The notes under the pieces are model-generated. The model was not told the DNA's origin. It saw only the letters and a list, made by a program, of their open reading frames with translations, and searched no databases. Of a DNA stretch of 50,352 bases, positions 17,272 to 44,856 are shown in pieces. The stretch comes from a virus. The DNA is taken from the IMG/VR virus record IMGVR_UViG_3300007351_000012, positions 1 to 50,352 of that record, one strand, 5' to 3'. A program made the position numbers and the translations under genes. Numbering within the stretch: the first letter of the stretch is position 1; each line of letters starts with the position of its first letter.

Positions 17272-18969
17272 ATGGCCTTTCGCTCGATCACCGAAGTCGC
17301 CCGCCAGGGCGACGCCCAAGCCCTCATCCGCGACTGGCGCGTAAAGTCGCTGGTCTGGCCCTACTTCTTCATCAAATCCGTTCTCGGCAACCCCGACATC
17401 ATCCCCCGCATCCACGGGGCCGACATCGACATGGTGCTCGGCAACCTGCGCGAAGGCGTCCGCAAACAGTTCATCGAATGGCCGCGGCGTCATATGAAAA
17501 CGTCGACGTTCACCTGCGGGCTGTCGATGTGGTTCATCCTGCCCTCGAACGACAACGATAAAGACTATGCGGTCAAACAGTTAGGCATCACCCCGGAGCG
17601 CTGGGACCAGATGGCCGCGCTGCGCAATCAGAACTACTGCCAACTCATCTGCTTTGAGACCATGGCGAACGCCCAGAAAAAGGTGGGGGAGATTCGCTGG
17701 CACTTCGAGTCGAACGAACTGTTCCGGTCGCTGTTCCCTGAAATCGCCTACACGGGCGCGGAATCGCCCTGGAACAATGACGGCTTCCGCATCCGCCGCA
17801 CCGGCATGGCCTCCAAGATCGCCGAGGGGACGTTCGACGCCGGGGGCGTGGGGGTCGCCGTCCAATCGCGCCACTACGACCTGATCTGGCTGGATGACAT
17901 CGTGGGCCAGGACGCGGCGCGCTCTGAAACCGAGATGGACAACACCCTGACCTGGGTAGGGCGGCTGACCGGCTGCGAGAAGCTCGGGGCGACCACGAAA
18001 TGGTTCGGGGTGTCGAACCGCTGGGGCTTCAACGACCTGAATTCCGTGCTGCGCAGCGACCCCTCGTGGCATTTCTTCACCCGCCGGGCCTGGGACGTCG
18101 GCGAAGACGGCCTCAGGATCCCGAATTTCCCGGAGAAATACCCGCTCCCCGTTCTGGACGAAATCAAGCACCACTTCATCTACGTCTCGCGCGAGGGCAG
18201 CGAGTCCGATTTCCTGGCCCAATGGCAGAACGATCCGCGGCCCGGCGGGGCCGCCATGATCGACCACGACCGCATCCACCGCTATCAGGTCACCACGGGG
18301 GGCGAAATCTCCTGCTCGTGCGGCAAGACCTATCACCCGGCCAACCTCAACCGCTACCTGCTGTTTGACCCCTATAACGCCAAGGGCAAGACGGCCTCGA
18401 AATCCCAGCCGGCCCTGGCCGTCGTCGGGCTCTCAACAGACAAACACGTCTTCCTGCTCGACATGTTCCAGAAACGGGTCAAGCACAACGACCTGGTTGA
18501 GCGCATCTTCGGCCTGAACGACCGCTGGCAGGGAGTCGTCGCCATGGGGTACGAGGATGTCGGGGCGCAAAACATGTGGGAGACGCTGCTCCGGCGGGAA
18601 ATGCGGTCGAGTGACTGGCGCGCGCGCCGGCACCGCGAAATCCGGCGCATCAAGGGCGTCGGGGTGTCGAACAAACCAATCGACATTCGCGTCCGGGAGT
18701 TCCTGGTGCCCTATCTGGACGCCCGGCCGGGGGTCGGGTGCTTCTCGGCCCGCGAGTCCCAGCAATTGTTCTGGGACATGCTCGAAACCTTTCCGCACCC
18801 GGTTCCGGGCCACGACTACGACTTGCTCTCAGCGCTCGCCATGGGGGCTCACCCGGACTTCCAATGGCAATTTCCGGTGTCTGACGAGGAACAGGAGCGC
18901 GATTCCAACGAAGAAGAGGAATACCTGCGGCATTTCAACATGCCCTATTCGGTGAACGCCTATGTTTAA
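17272..18969 (+). CDS. terL: Terminase large subunit
   Basis: 565 aa. The N-terminal ATPase has a Walker A variant PRRHMKTST (residues 71-79) and Walker B IWLDDI (205-210). The C-terminal RNase H-like nuclease has its first Asp in LLFDPYN (D366), an acidic pair in YEDV (E428/D429) and the last acidic site in HDYDLL (D515/D517). A small Cys-containing insert (CSCGKTYH, about 348-354) precedes the nuclease. It cuts concatemeric DNA and pumps it into the prohead through the portal. Unusually it is on the strand opposite to portal, capsid and small subunit. Confidence 0.88.
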   Translation: MAFRSITEVARQGDAQALIRDWRVKSLVWPYFFIKSVLGNPDIIPRIHGADIDMVLGNLREGVRKQFIEWPRRHMKTSTFTCGLSMWFILPSNDNDKDYAVKQLGITPERWDQMAALRNQNYCQLICFETMANAQKKVGEIRWHFESNELFRSLFPEIAYTGAESPWNNDGFRIRRTGMASKIAEGTFDAGGVGVAVQSRHYDLIWLDDIVGQDAARSETEMDNTLTWVGRLTGCEKLGATTKWFGVSNRWGFNDLNSVLRSDPSWHFFTRRAWDVGEDGLRIPNFPEKYPLPVLDEIKHHFIYVSREGSESDFLAQWQNDPRPGGAAMIDHDRIHRYQVTTGGEISCSCGKTYHPANLNRYLLFDPYNAKGKTASKSQPALAVVGLSTDKHVFLLDMFQKRVKHNDLVERIFGLNDRWQGVVAMGYEDVGAQNMWETLLRREMRSSDWRARRHREIRRIKGVGVSNKPIDIRVREFLVPYLDARPGVGCFSARESQQLFWDMLETFPHPVPGHDYDLLSALAMGAHPDFQWQFPVSDEEQERDSNEEEEYLRHFNMPYSVNAYV

Positions 18970-30285: not shown

Positions 30286-30834
30286 GTGGCAACGGCGGAG
30301 TTGCGGCAATCTTCGGACGCTTCCCCGGCCTTCCGTACGGAGCGCGGGGCCAGCCGAACCCTCCCCGTAGGTTCGTCCCCCGTTCTCCGCAAGGGTATGG
30401 CGTCTTCCCCCTCGCCGTACCCAACCCAAGCTGCGAGTACGGTTCACGGCATCGAGTCGTACTCGCAGCCCCAACCGCAGACGCTTTTCCCTGTTTCCCA
30501 AGAGGACTTTCGGCTGCAAGTCGTTGCCGTCATGGGGCTTGACCTGGATGATTGCGGCGAGCGCGGATTATCGCGTGCACAGGTTGCCGACGCCATGGAT
30601 GTGAAGCTCCCAACGCTTGATTCGTGGCTCGCCCAGACGCGCACCGATCGCAACATCCCCGTGGCCCAGGGGCCTGACTGGGTTCGGGCGACGGGTTCGC
30701 GGCGGCTGTTGGAATGGTTCGCGGCCCAGGTTGGCCTGCGCCTTGTCGAGCCCCACGTCGCTGAGATCGGCGAGGCCTACATCGCCGTCCAGCAGGCCAA
30801 GGCTCGGTTGCGGGATTTGACGGAGGTTGCGTGA
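30286..30834 (+). CDS. HTH regulator before integrase (CII-like possibility)
   Basis: 182 aa from GTG 30286, just after the previous stop and with GGAGG upstream. The first 70 residues are Ser/Pro-rich and probably disordered. Then comes a helix-turn-helix (LSRAQVADAMDVKLPTLDSW, about residues 104-123) and a helical C-terminus (RRLLEWFAAQVGLRLVEPHV). The layout resembles phage CII-type (CP76) regulators; this is tentative. It may control integrase expression. Confidence 0.5.
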   Translation: MATAELRQSSDASPAFRTERGASRTLPVGSSPVLRKGMASSPSPYPTQAASTVHGIESYSQPQPQTLFPVSQEDFRLQVVAVMGLDLDDCGERGLSRAQVADAMDVKLPTLDSWLAQTRTDRNIPVAQGPDWVRATGSRRLLEWFAAQVGLRLVEPHVAEIGEAYIAVQQAKARLRDLTEVA

Positions 30835-32075
30835 CGGCGCGGAACGCAAGTCATAGACTGGTGGGACTTCTCTCTCAAGGAGGTCTCACCGAAGACATGC
30901 GACGCAAATTCCGTCAGCTCGGCCATCTCTTAATCGAGAACGGCAAGTGGAAGGTCCGTTTCCGCAAGTGGGTCGTCGCGGACGGCCGCGCCAAACGCAT
31001 CCAGGCCAAGGAAACCATCGGCGAGGCGACAGGCCCCCGCGCCATCACCCGCCAAGACGCGGTGATCCTCGCTTGGCACCTGTATCTGAAGTACCAGAAT
31101 CACGACGCCGAAGTGGTCTGCACTGTCGGCGAGTTCTACGTCAAGGTGTTCTGCCCCGAGCACTGCCGCAACCTCAAGCCCGGCAGTCGCGCGGACTACC
31201 AGACGCGCTGGCGGATCTGGGTGGAGCCTGTCCTGGGCCAGATCCTGTTGACGCAGGTCAAGCGCGAAGACGTCCAGCGCATCATCGGCAGCGTCCTCGC
31301 GGCGGGTCGCAGCGTGCAAACTGCCGCCCACGTCCGCAAGCTGATCCAGGCGCTATTCACGGCGGCGAAGAAGAAGGGCTGGTACGTCAACGAAAACCCC
31401 GCGGCCGCGATCGACCTGCCCGAGATGGAGCGCCGCCCCGCCATGGCCTACACCCACGAGCAGGCACGGCGAATCCTGGAGGCGCTGGCGTCGCCTGTCC
31501 GCGAGGCCGTGCTGCTCTCGCTGACCACGGGCCTGGGGCCGGCGGAGTTCCGCGGCCTGCGGCTGGACTGCCTGAACCTGACGCCCGAGCCGCAAATCAC
31601 GGGCGGCGAGGCGCTGCCGCCGTTCTCGCTCGCGGTGCGGCGGAACTTCTACCTGGGCGAGTACGGCAGCCCCAAGACGAAACAGCGCCGCCGTATCGTG
31701 CCCCTGCTGCCGGCGGTGGCCGACGCCCTGCGGGGACTGCTGCGGCGCGAGCGGTTCGCGGCGTCTGATGACCCGGTGTTCTGCGGCGCGACCGGCAGGC
31801 CCATCGACACCCACAACGTGAGCAACCGCGTGTTTGGCCCGCTGGCGAAGGCCCTGGGGTTCCCGGTGACCTGGTACGCCCTGCGGCATACGCACGCGAC
31901 GTGGTGCGACCTGGCCGACATGCCGCTGACCGACCGCATGATTACGATGGGGCACGCGCGGGCCGCGATGACGCTCAACTATACGCACGTCGACGTGGAG
32001 CGGCGGCGCGAGTCGCTGCTGCTGGCGGCGGGAAGCCTGACGGAGAGGGTGGATTCGAAAGGAGCGGTGAATTGA
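30831..32075 (+). CDS. int: Tyrosine integrase with altered active site
   Basis: 414 aa, GTG start with GGAGG. Residues 1-90 form an arm-binding region, 95-195 the core-binding SAM-like domain (TVGEFYVKVFCPEH to AAKKKGWYVNENP), then the catalytic domain. Seen are the beta-hairpin Lys (SPKTKQRRRIVPL), the second Arg in ALRHTH (R352), the His of MGHARAAMT and the nucleophile Tyr384 (NYTH). The first catalytic Arg, normally in TGLR-x-x-E, is Gly236 (GGG codon) in TGLGPAE. The His before R352 is Tyr349. It recombines attP with the host tRNA site. Confidence 0.85.
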   Translation: MTARNASHRLVGLLSQGGLTEDMRRKFRQLGHLLIENGKWKVRFRKWVVADGRAKRIQAKETIGEATGPRAITRQDAVILAWHLYLKYQNHDAEVVCTVGEFYVKVFCPEHCRNLKPGSRADYQTRWRIWVEPVLGQILLTQVKREDVQRIIGSVLAAGRSVQTAAHVRKLIQALFTAAKKKGWYVNENPAAAIDLPEMERRPAMAYTHEQARRILEALASPVREAVLLSLTTGLGPAEFRGLRLDCLNLTPEPQITGGEALPPFSLAVRRNFYLGEYGSPKTKQRRRIVPLLPAVADALRGLLRRERFAASDDPVFCGATGRPIDTHNVSNRVFGPLAKALGFPVTWYALRHTHATWCDLADMPLTDRMITMGHARAAMTLNYTHVDVERRRESLLLAAGSLTERVDSKGAVN

Positions 32076-38023: not shown

Positions 38024-39478
38024 ATGGGACTTTTACATCAATTAGGCAGTGGTCAGGGATATCTCAAGGCCGGGTTCCTTGGCTTCAACAAATCCGGCAA
38101 GAGTTTCACAGCGGCGGTGATTGCTGTCGGACTCTGGAAGCATCTCGGCAAGAAGGGCCGCATCGTCCTGTTCGACACCGAGGGCGGCTCGGAATACCTC
38201 GTGCCGATGATTGAGAAGGAAACCGGGTCGAAGCCCCTCGGGGTTCGCTCGCGCTCATTCGCGGACCTGATGGCCGTCACGAGCGAACTCCAACCGGACG
38301 ACATCTTTCTGGTGGACTCCATCACGCACCCGTGGCGCGAACTCTGCGACGCGCACTTGGCCAAGGTCAACGAGGGCCGGCAGAAAAAACGGCTGCCGCC
38401 GCGCTCCAAGCTGGAGTTTCAAGACTGGGGGCCTATCAAGCTGACCTGGGCACAATGGACCGACTGGTACCTAAACTCAAAGGTCCACATCATCATTTGC
38501 GGACGCGCCGGGTTCGAGTACGAAATGGAAGACAACGCCGAGACGGGCAAGAAGGAACTGCAAAAGGTCGGCGTAAAGATGAAGACCGAGAGCGAGTTTG
38601 GTTTCGAGCCTTCGCTACTGGTTGAAATGGAGCGCGTCCAGGTATTCGAGGGCGAGAAGCATGTCATCAAGCGCCGCGCGACGGTCCTTGGTGATCGCTT
38701 CCAGGTTTTGGATGGGAAATCCTTCGACAACCCGACGTTCAAAACGTTCCTTCCCCACATTCAACTCCTGACGCCCGGTGCCCACGCCCCGATCGACACA
38801 GGCCTCAAGTCCGATACCGGCGTGGATGAATCAGGCGACGAACACTGGCAGCGAGAGCGCCGCGAGCGGGAGATCCTTTCCGAGGAGGTCAAGGGACTAT
38901 TCCAGCAATACATCCCAGGACAAACGGCAGCCGATAAGAAAACCCGCACCGAAATGATGGAGAAGTACTTCGGAACGCGCTCCTGGACCAAGGTGGAGAA
39001 CCTTCAATCGGGCGAATTGCGGGACGGCCTACGCGGCCTGCGGCGGCACTTCGAAGGGAACCCGGACGACAAGTTCGATATGCTGGCGCGGTTCCAGGAA
39101 GTCAAGAAACAACTGCGCGCCGCCACTGGGTCGGATGATGCCTACTACGCCATCCTGGGCTCGCACGGCTACGAGAAGTCGAACCAGATCGCGGACCCAG
39201 ATCAGCGCCAGCAAATCCTGAGCGATATGCGAGCGCGTGCGGCCACGCAATCTTCCCCGGCCGCCTCATCAGCCAAGCCGGAGAGCGGTGGACCGGGTGC
39301 TCCGGGGGGAACGCCCGGCCTCACCGTGGGGGATTTCAGCGCGGCCGAGCTGGCCGGCGTGCGGCTCGTGGCGGAACGGCTCAAGTACTCGACCGTCGAG
39401 GAGTACCTGGCGCTGTTCGCAAAGGATCAGCGGGAGGAGATTCTCGCGGCGGCGGAGCGATGGGCGGAGGCTCAATGA
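38024..39478 (+). CDS. Sak4-like RecA-fold recombinase / annealing ATPase
   Basis: 484 aa. Walker A GFNKSGKS (residues 20-27), the strand RIVLFDTEGGSEYL and Walker B DDIFLVDS (92-99) sit in a RecA core of about 250 residues, like phage Sak4 single-strand recombination proteins. From about residue 285 there is a helical region (EEVKGLFQQYIPGQTAADKK), then a Gly/Pro/Ser linker (about 409-430) and a short helical end that may bind SSB or DNA. It neighbours the DnaA-IV-like and HNH genes in a replication/recombination block. Confidence 0.7.
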   Translation: MGLLHQLGSGQGYLKAGFLGFNKSGKSFTAAVIAVGLWKHLGKKGRIVLFDTEGGSEYLVPMIEKETGSKPLGVRSRSFADLMAVTSELQPDDIFLVDSITHPWRELCDAHLAKVNEGRQKKRLPPRSKLEFQDWGPIKLTWAQWTDWYLNSKVHIIICGRAGFEYEMEDNAETGKKELQKVGVKMKTESEFGFEPSLLVEMERVQVFEGEKHVIKRRATVLGDRFQVLDGKSFDNPTFKTFLPHIQLLTPGAHAPIDTGLKSDTGVDESGDEHWQRERREREILSEEVKGLFQQYIPGQTAADKKTRTEMMEKYFGTRSWTKVENLQSGELRDGLRGLRRHFEGNPDDKFDMLARFQEVKKQLRAATGSDDAYYAILGSHGYEKSNQIADPDQRQQILSDMRARAATQSSPAASSAKPESGGPGAPGGTPGLTVGDFSAAELAGVRLVAERLKYSTVEEYLALFAKDQREEILAAAERWAEAQ

Positions 39479-39933
39479 CCCTGGACGCCCTCAGTCTTCG
39501 CAAGCGAGCCGACGCCGCCCTGGCGCTCGTGGCCGAAGTCACGGGCGTGCCGGTGGAGCGATTCGCCAAGCGCGCGCGCCGCGAGGATCTGCTGGCCGCG
39601 CGACGGTTTGCCATGTGGATCCTGAAGGTCGTTCTCAAGATGAGCTACCCGCAGATCGCCGAAACGTGCAACATGCGGGACCACGCCTCCGCGCTGCTGT
39701 CGGTCCAGCTCGTGAGCCGGTCCCTGCAAGATGACGCCGAGTTGCGCGAGTTCTGCATCCAGGTGGCGCGGCAACTGGATCCGGGGTTCCGGCTGAGCGA
39801 TGAGGACCTCGCGGCCATGACGGCGAATCGCCCGCGCAAGGGAACGCCGTGGGACGTGCCCCGGCCCTTGCGGAACGGGGCATGGCACGAAGGCGCGGAG
39901 TTGCGGCCCAGGGATGCGGTGCGGAAACGATGA
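39475..39933 (+). CDS. Stand-alone DnaA domain IV-like DNA-binding protein
   Basis: 152 aa. Residues about 36-82 follow the origin-binding domain of DnaA: R-R-E-D-L-L-A-A-R-R-F-A-M-W-I-L, then MSYPQIAETCNMRDHASALL, with the RDH signature (68-70) seen in bacterial DnaA as RDH-T/S. There is no AAA+ domain; the C-terminal 50 residues are basic and Pro-rich. It may bind DnaA boxes to start phage replication or to compete with host DnaA. ATGA overlaps on both sides. Confidence 0.65.
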   Translation: MTLDALSLRKRADAALALVAEVTGVPVERFAKRARREDLLAARRFAMWILKVVLKMSYPQIAETCNMRDHASALLSVQLVSRSLQDDAELREFCIQVARQLDPGFRLSDEDLAAMTANRPRKGTPWDVPRPLRNGAWHEGAELRPRDAVRKR

Positions 39934-40438: not shown

Positions 40439-40896
40439 AGTAACCCTGTCTTTTTATGGTAACACCTTGGAAAGTCGGAGCGCAGGGATTCACAAGGTTA
40501 ATTTCGCTCCAAGCGTCCGAAGCGCCGCTTTGTTTCGCTTCCCCCTCTGCCCATACGAGCCTTGCTCAGCGGGGAGAGTCGGCGCAGCCGCAAGGCTGGC
40601 ATCGTCTGACGGCGATGGGTGATTTTCACTATACCGGGCCGGGTTGTCTGAGTTGCTGGCAACAGCAGCGTCAGGGCCTCAGCCGGGCTGATGTTTAGCT
40701 CCGTCAGGCTCCCAGGTTAGGGTCCTATCCCCTTGCCTGGTTCGTGGTGCCGGACCCACACGGAAACTCGGGCAACCGAGTGGAAACCCGTCCGGTTCTG
40801 CGGGAAATTTATTTCCCTTTGGCTCTCTTCCCTCTGCGGGAAGGTCTGGCGGCTCATCAAACAGGCATGGTTCACATAAGCAAGGTGATAGACAGC
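40439..40896 (+). ncRNA. Structured non-coding region, candidate ncRNA or origin
   Basis: No convincing gene in about 458 bp between the terminator and the next ATG. It holds an ordered series of hairpins. AGCCTTGC/GCAAGGCT is an 8-bp pair around 40558-40600. A stem of about 11 bp with a bulged G and a GCAA loop lies at 40648-40674. A nested element has outer stem CCGGAC 40750-40755 with GTCCGG 40790-40795 and inner stem ACTCGG-GCAA-CCGAGT 40766-40781. Two GNRA tetraloops and purine-rich internal loops suggest a folded RNA. A replication origin is the alternative. Confidence 0.45.
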
Positions 40897-41334
40897 ATGG
40901 AATTAAATTTCGGCGAACCAGTTCCAGAAACAAAGACCCCCAGGAAGCGAACGCTGCCCCCCGACATCCAGTTGCGGTTCAACGAATGGTGGGCGCTGTG
41001 GCCCAAGAAAGTGGATAAGGACGATGCCGAGCGGGCCTTTGCCAAGATCATCGGGCGCGACCAGAAGAGTTTCCAGAGATTGATGCGGACCACGTCCTAC
41101 TGGAACTACTTCCAATACACGCGCATGATGGCCGACAAGCGCGAGCGCGACTTTGTTCCCTACCCGGCGACGTTCTTGAATAAGGGCCGCTGGAAAGAGC
41201 CGCCGCCAGAGTTTCACGACTGGGCTGAGCGCGCGCAGCAAAACGGCGTGGCGGGCCTAAAGGCTATCGCCGAGGGGCCGCACGAGGATGTTCGGGCCGA
41301 GGCGCGGAAGGCCCTGGAGGATTTGGCGAAATGA
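40897..41334 (+). CDS. Replication-type protein (helicase-loader/primosome-like)
   Basis: 145 aa from ATG 40897 (AAGGTG site). The pattern RFNEWWALWPKKVDKDDAER, WNYFQY and YPATFLNKGRWKE corresponds to the C-terminal module of many phage replication proteins (F-x-x-W-x-x-Y/W-P-x-K, then H/Y-P-A-T-F/W-L-N-x-x-R-W). Those proteins help load helicase. A longer N-terminus (from 40744) would run through the hairpins and is rejected. The DNA-binding domain usually N-terminal to it is missing. Confidence 0.6.
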   Translation: MELNFGEPVPETKTPRKRTLPPDIQLRFNEWWALWPKKVDKDDAERAFAKIIGRDQKSFQRLMRTTSYWNYFQYTRMMADKRERDFVPYPATFLNKGRWKEPPPEFHDWAERAQQNGVAGLKAIAEGPHEDVRAEARKALEDLAK

Positions 41335-41561
41335 GCGACAAAGGCCGTAAACCCTGGCGCGTTGGCCGCAAAGTGGGGCGCACGATCTACGACGCCGATG
41401 ACAACCTGATCGGCATGATGGACACGCGGGAGTTGGCGGCGGAAGTGGTGCGATGTGTAAACGTCTCTTTGGTGTCAGAGGAACTAGAGAGGGTCACTGA
41501 GGAACGGGACGAGTTGCGAGCTACTATTCACGCTTTTATTGAAAGCGGGAGAATGCAATGA
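41331..41561 (+). CDS. Small conserved phage protein (76 aa)
   Basis: KPWRVGRKVGRTIYDADDNL and IGMMDTRELAAEVVRCVN is a pattern found in small proteins of many phages (roughly, a two-strand hairpin with an D-x-x-L-I-G-x-M-D-T loop). The C-terminus is a coil (SEELERVTEERDELRATIH). Function unknown. Confidence 0.6.
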   Translation: MSDKGRKPWRVGRKVGRTIYDADDNLIGMMDTRELAAEVVRCVNVSLVSEELERVTEERDELRATIHAFIESGRMQ

Positions 41562-41911
41562 CCGACGAACTGCAAAAGATCGCGGACCAGATCAAGGCGG
41601 CGGGGGAGAAGGAAGAGGCGGAGAGCGACTTAGAGCAGACTCGCGTACAGGCTGCTGGCGTCTTAACGGCAATCGAAGGCCACAAGCCGGACCCTCCGGT
41701 TGTCAGGGGTGATTACGGCTGGTCTCCCGCTTACGAGGTAGCCATGGCGTATCGAGTCCAACTCGAAGCCGCCCGCGCGGCCCTGCTGGTGTTCGCGGAA
41801 CGGGGGAATTGGACGGATTCTCCTGCGACTCCAGGTTCTAGCCTGAATGCGGGTTGGTACGGTGCAGCCACGCCCTGGAAGATCGCGCAGAAGGCGCTGG
41901 AGGGGAAGTGA
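41558..41911 (+). CDS. Small protein with PWKIAQKALEGK end (117 aa)
   Basis: Helical N-terminus (MTDELQKIADQIKAAGEKEE), then GWSPAYEVAMAYRVQLEAAR and the C-terminal PWKIAQKALEGK. The DNA of that last motif recurs 1.58 kb downstream, fused out of frame to a ClpX-ZBD-like gene. GTGA overlap to the winged-helix gene. Unknown function. Confidence 0.55.
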   Translation: MTDELQKIADQIKAAGEKEEAESDLEQTRVQAAGVLTAIEGHKPDPPVVRGDYGWSPAYEVAMAYRVQLEAARAALLVFAERGNWTDSPATPGSSLNAGWYGAATPWKIAQKALEGK

Positions 41912-42687: not shown

Positions 42688-42840
42688 ATGCCGTGGTCAA
42701 TCGGAGCAGCAGTCGTCTCGTTGCTGGTGGCTATCTTTGGCGACAGGTTAGCCCCTGGGGGCGACGCCCCACTGGTCGCGATTTGGTGGATGCTGGGCGC
42801 TATTCTATTTTGCCTTTGGAGTAAGACTGAGAATGACTGA
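42688..42840 (+). CDS. Small membrane protein (50 aa)
   Basis: MPWSIGAAVVSLLVAIFGDR and PLVAIWWMLGAILFCLWSK: two transmembrane helices with a short loop. It overlaps the GroES-like gene by 8 bp; an AGGAGAGGG element lies upstream of the ATG. Unknown. Confidence 0.5.
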   Translation: MPWSIGAAVVSLLVAIFGDRLAPGGDAPLVAIWWMLGAILFCLWSKTEND

Positions 42841-43246
42841 CGAACTACGCAAACTCATTCCGCTGCCGCATCTGGCGCGGTTCAAACAACTATGGGAGGG
42901 CATCGAAGTCGACCAAGTGCTCGGCGACCGCGTGCTGGTCCAGGAGGTCGAGCCGTTCACCGACATGGACAAATCGACCATCGTGATCCCCGACGAGGTC
43001 CGCAAGCGCAATACCCCGGATGCCTGCACCGGGATCGTGCATCAGGTGGGGGACCAATACACGCGCGAGATGGGGCCCGGCGCTATGGTCCTTTTCGACC
43101 AGTTCGCGGGCTCGAAGTTCACCATCGGGAAGGTCAAGTTCCGCGTGCTCGACACGTCCGAGATTGTCTGCACTTTGCGGGCCGTGGAAGGCAAGACGAT
43201 GGGGCAACTCGTGGGGCCCGTGAAGGATGAGGTGCGGCTATGGTGA
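42833..43246 (+). CDS. GroES-like co-chaperonin
   Basis: 137 aa. From residue about 27 the Cpn10 pattern is clear: VLGDRVLVQEVE, the mobile-loop position (TDMDKSTIVIPDEVRKRN), GIVHQVGD, GAMVLFDQFAG and the final strand VLDTSEIVC. An N-terminal extension of about 26 residues and a C-terminal tail (GQLVGPVKDEVRLW) are extra. Phage GroES homologues (T4 gp31 is the classic) cap host GroEL to fold capsid proteins. The mobile loop keeps an I-V-I motif for GroEL contact. Confidence 0.75.
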   Translation: MTDELRKLIPLPHLARFKQLWEGIEVDQVLGDRVLVQEVEPFTDMDKSTIVIPDEVRKRNTPDACTGIVHQVGDQYTREMGPGAMVLFDQFAGSKFTIGKVKFRVLDTSEIVCTLRAVEGKTMGQLVGPVKDEVRLW

Positions 43247-43494
43247 TGCGACCAAGGAAAAAGCACCGGAAGAATAACCCACCTGAGCCAGCGACGACGC
43301 AACACGCCTCGCACTGCTCATTCTGTCAAAAGGACCCTTCTCAATGTGGTGTTCTTGCGGTAGTGCCTAATAGTTCAGCCGCCATTTGCCACGAATGTTG
43401 CTTGATATCACTAGATTTGATTATGCGCTATGGCGTAATTGCTCACGAGCAGCCCTGGAAAGATCGCGCGCAAGGCGCTGGAGGGGAAGGGTAA
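43240..43494 (+). CDS. ClpX zinc-binding-domain-like small protein 1
   Basis: 84 aa. A basic start (MVMRPRKKHRKNN) leads to HCSFCQKDPSQCGVLAVVPN and AICHECC. The CSFC-x20-CHEC layout with an L-A-V-V-P-N strand copies the N-terminal zinc domain of ClpX (CSFCGK...IAGP...ICDEC), without any ATPase part. The last 14 residues (EQPWKDRAQGAGGEG) are a frame-shifted copy of another gene's end. May bind ClpX or its adaptors, or simply be a zinc protein. Confidence 0.6.
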   Translation: MVMRPRKKHRKNNPPEPATTQHASHCSFCQKDPSQCGVLAVVPNSSAAICHECCLISLDLIMRYGVIAHEQPWKDRAQGAGGEG

Positions 43495-43670
43495 TGGATT
43501 TTCCCGGCAAAATCATCGGTTCCTTGCTGCTGTCCGGCGTGGTGACGGCGGGACTGGCATTCTTTATCGGCATCTGCGGTAGCGACAAGGCTTCCAAGAC
43601 ATTGTTCTTGTTGGCGATGATTATGACCCTGGCGTCGGCTGTGGTCCTATTAGTGGATGCATGGCTCTAG
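43494..43670 (+). CDS. Small two-helix membrane protein (58 aa)
   Basis: MDFPGKIIGSLLLSGVVTAG and TLFLLAMIMTLASAVVLLVD form two transmembrane helices with a GICGSDKASK loop. Starts at a TAATG overlap. Its final codons (W-L-stop) lie in the first copy of the 113-bp repeat. Unknown. Confidence 0.5.
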   Translation: MDFPGKIIGSLLLSGVVTAGLAFFIGICGSDKASKTLFLLAMIMTLASAVVLLVDAWL

Positions 43671-43774
43671 CCCGATACTGCACCTTTGACTTTGGCGTAC
43701 TTTCCCGGCTTCGCGCCCTTGGTGGCGACGCCGCCCTTGACGGCCGTGATGGAGTTCGCGGCGGCGTACTTACC
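43662..43774. repeat. 113-bp direct repeat, copy 1
   Basis: Identical to 44663-44775 at 110 of 113 positions; the three differences lie in its first 25 bp. On the minus strand it holds the last 35 codons of the small basic gene at 44668-44856, but here without that gene's start, so it is a 3' gene fragment. Confidence 0.9.
43667..43774 (-). pseudogene. 3' fragment of the 62-aa basic protein gene
   Basis: The minus frame reads GKYAAANSITAVKGGVATKG and onward to the same stop as the intact gene at 44668. Upstream of the repeat the frame continues into unrelated sequence, with no promoter or ribosome binding site. It is a duplicated, probably non-functional fragment. Confidence 0.65.
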
Positions 43775-43786
43775 TCTACATGCCGA

Positions 43787-44032
43787 GTGCGCATCCAGAC
43801 CACGTTCACCTACGAGATGGATTGGCATGGCCGCCCTGACGATCCCGATGAGGATGGCCAATCACTCGGCGAACGCATTGAATTCTGGGCCAACGAGAGT
43901 TCGTCGTGCGCCGACAATCTTGTGGATGCGCTCGTGCTCTACGTGCGCCAATTGGACGCGGCTGGTGGGTGTATGTGCGCCCTCGCTGATACGAAATTCA
44001 TCGAGACCGTGGGACCCGTGAAGGAGGAATAA
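43787..44032 (+). CDS. Hypothetical protein abutting repeat copy 1 (81 aa)
   Basis: GTG 43787 gives (M)RIQTTFTYEMDWHGRPDDP, acidic with SLGERIEFWANESSSCADNL and a Cys pair (GGCMCALAD), ending VGPVKEE. The open frame extends left into the repeat, but there it only reads the repeat in antisense. The VGPVKEE end is shared in sequence with the GroES gene end. Unknown function. Confidence 0.5.
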   Translation: MRIQTTFTYEMDWHGRPDDPDEDGQSLGERIEFWANESSSCADNLVDALVLYVRQLDAAGGCMCALADTKFIETVGPVKEE

Positions 44033-44035
44033 GCC

Positions 44036-44257
44036 ATGGCCACACTCGAAACAGTGCCGCAACCAACCGACGAGCGGTGTTCGTTCTGCGAGATACTTCC
44101 CAGGGACGTACTTATTAGGTCGCCAGACAAATCGGCCTATATTTGCGCCGAGTGCGTTGTGGCGTGCGTTGGGTTGGTTATCGGTGACCTGCGGCTTAAA
44201 GCGGATCGCGAGAAATGGGCCGGTCGTGCCGCAATGATTCGAGACATGTACCCCTAG
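44036..44257 (+). CDS. ClpX zinc-binding-domain-like small protein 2
   Basis: 73 aa. Cys15-S-F-Cys18 and Cys37-A-E-Cys40 have exactly the spacing of the Escherichia coli ClpX zinc domain (18 residues between pairs). The strand DVLIRSPDKSAYI and the following helix VVACVGLVIGDLRLKADREK also fit. No ATPase domain follows. Stand-alone ZBD copies could dimerise with ClpX or occupy adaptor sites. The stop codon lies in an 18-bp sequence related to the repeat start. Confidence 0.65.
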   Translation: MATLETVPQPTDERCSFCEILPRDVLIRSPDKSAYICAECVVACVGLVIGDLRLKADREKWAGRAAMIRDMYP

Positions 44258-44302: not shown

Positions 44303-44671
44303 ATGAAAGTCATACCGCTTGAACCGGGGCTGCGCGACAGCCTCGGCGTGATGGAAGAGAAGCGCAAGGCGCTGAAGGCGGAAGCAGATGCCAAGTTCAA
44401 AGAATGGCAGGCGCTCACCGAGCAGTTGGACGCCGCGGCCAAGATGCGCCGCGAACTGTTGAATGGTGCGGCGGGCGTGAAGGATTCCGGCGAATCCGTT
44501 GAACTCAGCGATGACGGCGCGTACATCGTTGTGCGGGAGCACGTCGTTGGCCTCTACGACCACCAACAATCGTTGGCACCCCTGTACGGCCAGCAGCAAG
44601 CGGCATTGGGGAACATGCAAGGTGGGCTACTGGGGTCTGCGCTGGGAGCGCTCAGGCCGCCCTGGCTCTAG
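44303..44671 (+). CDS. Coiled-coil protein (122 aa)
   Basis: From ATG 44303 (an earlier in-frame ATG at 44285 lacks a site): MKVIPLEPGLRDSLGVMEEK, then a long charged coil (KRKALKAEADAKFKEWQALT), a beta pair (DDGAYIVVREHVVGL) and a Gln/Gly-rich end (GALRPPWL). The last codons lie in repeat copy 2, and the stop overlaps the stop of the convergent gene. Unknown. Confidence 0.5.
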   Translation: MKVIPLEPGLRDSLGVMEEKRKALKAEADAKFKEWQALTEQLDAAAKMRRELLNGAAGVKDSGESVELSDDGAYIVVREHVVGLYDHQQSLAPLYGQQQAALGNMQGGLLGSALGALRPPWL

Positions 44672-44775
44672 CCCGAAACTGCGCCCTTGACTTTGGCGTA
44701 CTTTCCCGGCTTCGCGCCCTTGGTGGCGACGCCGCCCTTGACGGCCGTGATGGAGTTCGCGGCGGCGTACTTACC
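44663..44775. repeat. 113-bp direct repeat, copy 2
   Basis: Second copy, 1001 bp downstream of the first. It contains the 3' end of the intact minus-strand gene and the stop codon of the plus-strand coiled-coil gene. The 888 bp between copies hold three plus-strand genes. Confidence 0.9.
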
Positions 44776-44856
44776 CATCGGCGGAATCACGGCATTGTGG
44801 ATCTTGCCCGAGCCGACTTGCCCGTTGCCGCGTGTCTGTTTGTGTGCTCTGCCCAT
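44668..44856 (-). CDS. Small basic Gly/Lys/Ala-rich protein (62 aa)
   Basis: MGRAHKQTRGNGQVGSGKIH continues with GKYAAANSITAVKGGVATKG and a lysine-rich end. AGGAG eight bases before ATG 44856 is well placed. Last gene of the leftward virion operon, overlapping the 62-aa acidic gene by 86 bp. A DNA-binding or virion-minor role is possible. Confidence 0.6.
   Translation of the reverse strand: MGRAHKQTRGNGQVGSGKIHNAVIPPMGKYAAANSITAVKGGVATKGAKPGKYAKVKGAVSG

Follow-up and report, generated by a model that had tools for sequence, protein, structure and literature searches.

The window analysed here, an entire IMG/VR virus record of 50,352 bases, encodes on its plus strand two short proteins, ZBD1 (84 residues; 43240..43494) and ZBD2 (73 residues; 44036..44257), each of them a stand-alone ClpX-type C4 zinc domain. 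The leading explanation, plausible from ClpX biology and given a probability of about 0.4, is that both are free-standing and diverged ClpX N-domains that would be made early and function as decoys in ClpX recognition. If free ClpX zinc domains do work in this way, they would give phages a simple and widespread means of controlling the main regulatory protease of the host, and would offer a natural reagent to block ClpX adaptors. Several such proteins are mislabelled as proteases or ligases in public records, which makes the family easily overlooked; it is also easy to test.

Two stand-alone ClpX-type zinc domains

The earlier note had described the proteins at 43240 and 44036 as the zinc module of ClpX and nothing more. 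Consistent with this, both open reading frames exist, no AAA+ module follows the zinc domain in either (the frames end at 84 and 73 residues), and zf-C4_ClpX (PF06689) is the top Pfam family for ZBD1 (E 1.4e-5, 25.3 bits) as well as for ZBD2 (E 1e-4, 22.5 bits). These scores fall 2–5 bits short of the curated Pfam cut-off of 27 bits, and the two proteins are, judged by sequence, diverged relatives of the family and not clear members. Across the whole 50-kb record, PF06689 matches ZBD1 (E 5e-7) and ZBD2 (E 1.5e-5) only, and the NCBIfam ClpX models align to them at the N terminus only and far under cut-off. A joint ZBD1 and ZBD2 profile compared by HHalign with ClpX N termini gives a probability of 96.8 (E 2.3e-10), and all 16 of the 16 members of the relatives' alignment match PF06689. 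Both frames are intact and are preceded by a ribosome-binding-like sequence; ZBD1 has a G+C content of 0.52, against 0.62 for the genome.

The four cysteines of both proteins lie in a CSFC and ICxEC context, at positions 26, 29, 50 and 53 of ZBD1, which is two residues longer between the CxxC pairs, and at 15, 18, 37 and 40 of ZBD2. At its N terminus ZBD1 carries in addition a 20-residue basic arm. The two proteins share 35% identity over 54 residues (E 3e-7). When the CSFC/ICxEC residues were held fixed and the remaining sequence was shuffled 5,000 times, this similarity beat 99.8% of the shuffles (12/5000 as good), whereas similarity to Escherichia coli ClpX beat only about 97% (133/5000 and 170/5000 as good), indicating that the motif carries most of the resemblance to ClpX. 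On this comparison ZBD1 and ZBD2 are kin to each other, and the residues outside the motif back that kinship more than they back kinship with ClpX.

In a comparison with 33 other stand-alone domains from phages and with 73 longer reading frames of ClpX, ZBD2 retains the cysteines together with F17, I36, E39, V41 and C44; in the ungapped alignment it lacks K20 and the KLIAG hairpin motif. ZBD1 keeps a lysine at the position after CSFCQ and is likewise devoid of KLIAG, and in place of the ClpX hairpin the two proteins have VLxxxP(N/D)xSAxIC in common. Most of the ClpX hairpin consensus is, as far as this alignment reports, gone from both, so that their adaptor-binding surface may be gone as well.

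Predicted fold and possible re-use of the scaffold

AlphaFold2 models of the two proteins have pLDDT values of 80 and 77. In agreement with the fold that the earlier note had expected, ClpX N-domain structures come first in the fold search for both, ahead of other zinc folds; the models partly depend on the sequence match, since their input alignment held ClpX-like relatives. The best match to ZBD1 is the isolated ClpX ZBD 2ds5 (probability 1.00, target-normalised TM 0.77, 1.2 Å), which ZBD2 also matches (probability 0.90, target-normalised TM 0.71, 1.4 Å); the Foldseek E-values are weak (0.04–0.4) because the domain is short (about 40 residues). Among viral proteins, the 'Clp protease' of Pseudomonas phage PP9W2 matches the fold of ZBD1 best. 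The most likely fold of both ZBD1 and ZBD2 is a dimeric treble-clef zinc domain. The two are like the ClpX N-terminal zinc domain (PF06689; 1ovx, 2ds5–2ds8) in the C4 treble clef, the CSFC/ICxEC context, the fold and the short length, but differ from ClpX in having neither the AAA+ unfoldase nor KLIAG, in occurring as two copies in one genome and in a hairpin that is probably about two residues longer.

Strands are predicted at residues 26–28 and 35–37 of ZBD2, followed by a long C-terminal helix at 38–71, and at 39–41 and 48–50 of ZBD1, a constant offset of 13. Taken with the comparison of ZBD1, ZBD2 and ClpX, these positions suggest that in ZBD2 the first loop is shorter and the hairpin longer, the two changes cancelling out. 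The 'exact' E. coli cysteine spacing previously ascribed to ZBD2 is therefore correct as to the positions but no sign of closeness to ClpX, the total spacing having probably been restored by compensating indels.

A fold of this kind need not imply a ClpX-related target. In Bacillus subtilis, the small protein CsfB forms a C4 treble-clef dimer, like the predicted ZBD fold, and its nearest structure is the ClpX N-domain, yet it acts as an anti-sigma factor (PMC5890618). The strongest rival to the decoy reading is accordingly that the dimeric treble-clef scaffold now serves a partner unrelated to ClpX, for example as an inhibitor of RNA polymerase or of a sigma factor, which we regard as a real though lesser possibility. 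The lost hairpin consensus would suit such re-use, as would two small plus-strand neighbours with weak HTH matches. However, ClpX structures top the fold search, and no anti-sigma family, the CsfB/Gin profile included, appears among the Pfam and NCBIfam matches of the ZBDs up to E 1. CsfB itself targets sigma factors and has been studied in sporulating B. subtilis. Were the scaffold re-used in this way, ClpX ancestry would say nothing about the target.

Stand-alone ClpX zinc domains in other phages

A motif scan of IMG/VR returned at least 119 matching stretches. Among the matches listed, about 33 are stand-alone by the reading of their frames (proteins of about 50–204 residues), and the remainder are mostly full-length ClpX of about 400 residues or frames cut at a contig end. 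All 33 stand-alone proteins pass the PF06689 cut-off, and each of their records holds a single copy. Further examples, among them L265, L276, L303, L326 and L331, came from viruses and from bacterial genomes in a second motif scan. The 33 phage domains have helix and hairpin positions as in intact ClpX and most of them keep the hairpin, a pattern which suggests that the ClpX-type surface is under selection in the wider phage group.

Named carriers are Pseudomonas phages PP9W2 and Alize, Escherichia phages P88 and D6, Caulobacter phage Cr30 and Pantoea phage PdC23, and the public labels of these proteins are 'Clp protease', 'C4-type zinc finger protein', 'carboxylate-amine ligase', hypothetical or none at all. 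The stand-alone phage ClpX-type zinc proteins of PHROG 12435, 6797, 5259 and 20296 are also domain-only and lie in early regions. To call ZBD1 and ZBD2 special mimics was thus right in so far as they are ClpX-domain proteins but too broad, since lone ClpX zinc domains are widespread in IMG/VR and in named phages. Proteins of this kind are already in the databases, though unexplained in the open literature searched, where no study of phage stand-alone ClpX zinc domains was found (weak evidence, as that search covered open papers only). It is the pairing and the divergence that are unusual here: the stand-alone records searched have one copy, no GroES and a mostly conserved hairpin, whereas the window has two copies, a GroES homologue and a lost hairpin.

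Several of the related sequences merit separate mention. PHROG 12435 is named 'protease' and its profile of 65 positions covers approximately the zinc domain alone. The stand-alone ClpX zinc-domain protein of phage P88 (L124, 3001–3333) is the one labelled 'carboxylate-amine ligase', and in phage PdC23 (L126, 3001–3129) an unannotated ClpX-type zinc-domain sequence lies between pdc_057 and RusA. A 221-kb virus record (L104) encodes a 204-residue fusion of a ClpX-type zinc domain with a second domain that resembles, by eye, a TIR/deoxyribosyltransferase-type fold. A similar helical-looking N-terminal region precedes the stand-alone domain in L012, L020, L051, L078 and L119 as well as in P88 and D6.

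Early location and proposed decoy action

Lambda O, MuA and UmuD are direct ligands of the ClpX N-domain, which is essential for the degradation of lambda O, and a peptide that fills its SspB site blocks recognition and degradation (PMC3983244). As decoys, both ZBDs would be made from the early or replication side of the temperate phage genome and would bind tails normally taken by the ClpX N-domain, whether of phage replication and regulatory proteins or of host adaptors; alternatively, they would pair with host ClpX N-domains. Having no AAA+ module they can bind only, not unfold, and the outcome would be that selected proteins are kept away from ClpXP. We infer the zinc binding and dimerisation of ZBD1 and ZBD2, as well as their target and the direction of their effect.

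The two genes stand at the end of an early-type plus-strand run, beyond which minus-strand virion genes follow. At the head of this run lies a homologue of replication-initiation proteins (40744..41334, plus strand; phrog_270 1.3e-14, phrog_9474 4.7e-11, phrog_9327 primosomal 9e-10), which is a candidate client of the ZBDs. In named phages the ZBD genes lie near replication or nin-type genes: after a primosomal protein and DnaB in PP9W2, after replication P in PdC23 and after a replication protein in P88. An early or replication location in the window and in these three phages would fit a role in which proteins of replication or regulation are shielded from ClpXP. A wider proposal, that free ClpX N-domains are a widespread temperate-phage counter-measure shielding such proteins, with two alleles for different clients occupying one recombining operon-end slot here, appears to us rather unlikely.

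The ClpX N-domain dimerises on its own (PMC5415555), a property that would also allow an adaptor role, in which a ZBD pairs with the host ClpX N-domain via the shared dimer interface and delivers a chosen host or phage protein, such as a repressor or defence protein, to ClpXP. The basic N-terminal arm of ZBD1 and the predicted long C-terminal helix of ZBD2 could hold cargo, and in Staphylococcus aureus the inactivation of a prophage CI repressor reportedly requires ClpX (PMC10584840). On the other hand, neither protein has a recognised cargo site, and the models are of monomers; we consider an adaptor role improbable.

The neighbouring GroES homologue

The gene at 42833..43246 (plus strand; 137 residues) encodes a GroES/Cpn10 homologue, as had been noticed before: it scores 43.1 bits against PF00166, well over the curated cut-off of 21.1, and matches phrog_3188 (co-chaperonin GroES) at 1.1e-6. 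Eleven NCBIfam GroES models match it, all under their cut-offs, and a GroES-like mobile-loop sequence (...KSTIVIPD...) was noticed by eye. The phage GroES homologues of phrog_3188 likewise combine a Cpn10 domain with a hydrophobic mobile-loop motif, and T4 gp31 is a functional analogue of such homologues. By tblastn, the protein had no match among the phage or plasmid records searched.

The GroES frame terminates just inside ZBD1, and with this 7-nt overlap the two genes look co-translated, as would suit the dedicated proteostasis cassette of ZBDs and GroES that the earlier note had proposed. Against such a cassette, the two families were never found together in the two sets of records compared: Cpn10 occurs in 0/33 stand-alone-ZBD phage records, and PF06689 in 0/34 GroES phage records (the Cpn10-containing ones among 39 obtained by a GroES-motif selection), counts which are evidence against a common cassette and not proof, the records often being fragments. 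One of 14 further ZBD records has GroES, and its ZBD frame is not a short stand-alone one. With co-occurrence tested in both directions, a recurrent GroES–ZBD cassette was rejected. Given these counts, the neighbourhood of GroES and ZBD1 is a local arrangement, and a dedicated cassette has very little probability. The GroES homologue probably assists capsid or protein folding independently and has no mechanistic tie to the ZBDs.

Repeats and history of the paired locus

A 113-nt direct repeat lies around the ZBD genes. Its second copy (44663..44775) is located at the 3' end of a minus-strand gene at 44668–44856, and its first copy (43662..43774) is a fragment of the end of that gene; the copies are 97% identical and lie 1001 nt apart. 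The repeat looks like a recombination scar at a convergent operon boundary. Between the ZBD genes is a frame of 123 residues (43661..44032, plus strand), the 5' part of which is antisense to the duplicated fragment, so that the true gene may start later. A 20-nt junction sequence is found just upstream of ZBD1 (43211..43230, plus strand; GTGGGGCCCGTGAAGGATGA) and again just upstream of ZBD2 (44009..44028, plus strand; GTGGGACCCGTGAAGGAGGA), that is, twice in the window against 0.03 matches expected. An 18-nt gene-end sequence occurs three times, at 43667, 44254 and 44668, and a near-identical 30-nt sequence occurs at 41879 and 43460. These 18-, 20- and 30-nt recurrences at gene ends and starts are far above chance and are possibly recombination linkers between small genes.

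The ZBDs are only 35% identical and the repeat 97%, which does not agree with a simple, recent ZBD duplication. We infer instead that the tandem pair arose when two related phage operon ends were joined, each with its own ZBD allele. The 113-nt repeat and the shared junctions around the ZBD genes, and the C terminus of ZBD1, which is apparently out of frame relative to the 30-nt repeat shared with the gene at 41558, would also agree with one or both genes being chance-kept remnants at a recombining operon end. We give this scarcely any weight: the frames are intact, each has its four cysteines and a ribosome-binding-like sequence precedes each.

The phage genome

By its gene content the window is a temperate-type tailed phage, with a terminase (17272–18969), an integrase (30831–32075), and minus-strand genes for the portal and virion. 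It looks like an isolated lineage. Terminase identity to INPHARED phages is only 21–26%, and a peptide-pattern search of IMG/VR found no close relatives of ZBD1, ZBD2, the GroES homologue, the terminase or an internal virion protein. The integrase was not found in GTDB genomes, nor ZBD2 in plasmids by tblastn. PADLOC gave no defence-system match, no tRNA or Rfam family hinted at a host or attachment site, and promoter and terminator scans performed no better than chance.

The plus-strand run upstream of the ZBD genes also encodes a DnaA C-terminal DNA-binding domain protein (39460–39933, plus strand; PF08299, 44 bits) next to a phrog_1366 protein that matches GemA and HerA weakly (38024–39478, plus strand), an unusual replication module. 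The start of a 58-residue protein (43494..43670, plus strand) overlaps the stop of ZBD1 (TAATG); it has two hydrophobic stretches and no confident family in family searches. Together with the product of 42688–42840, it is one of two small proteins with two hydrophobic stretches that flank GroES and ZBD1, and these could be membrane or lysis proteins.
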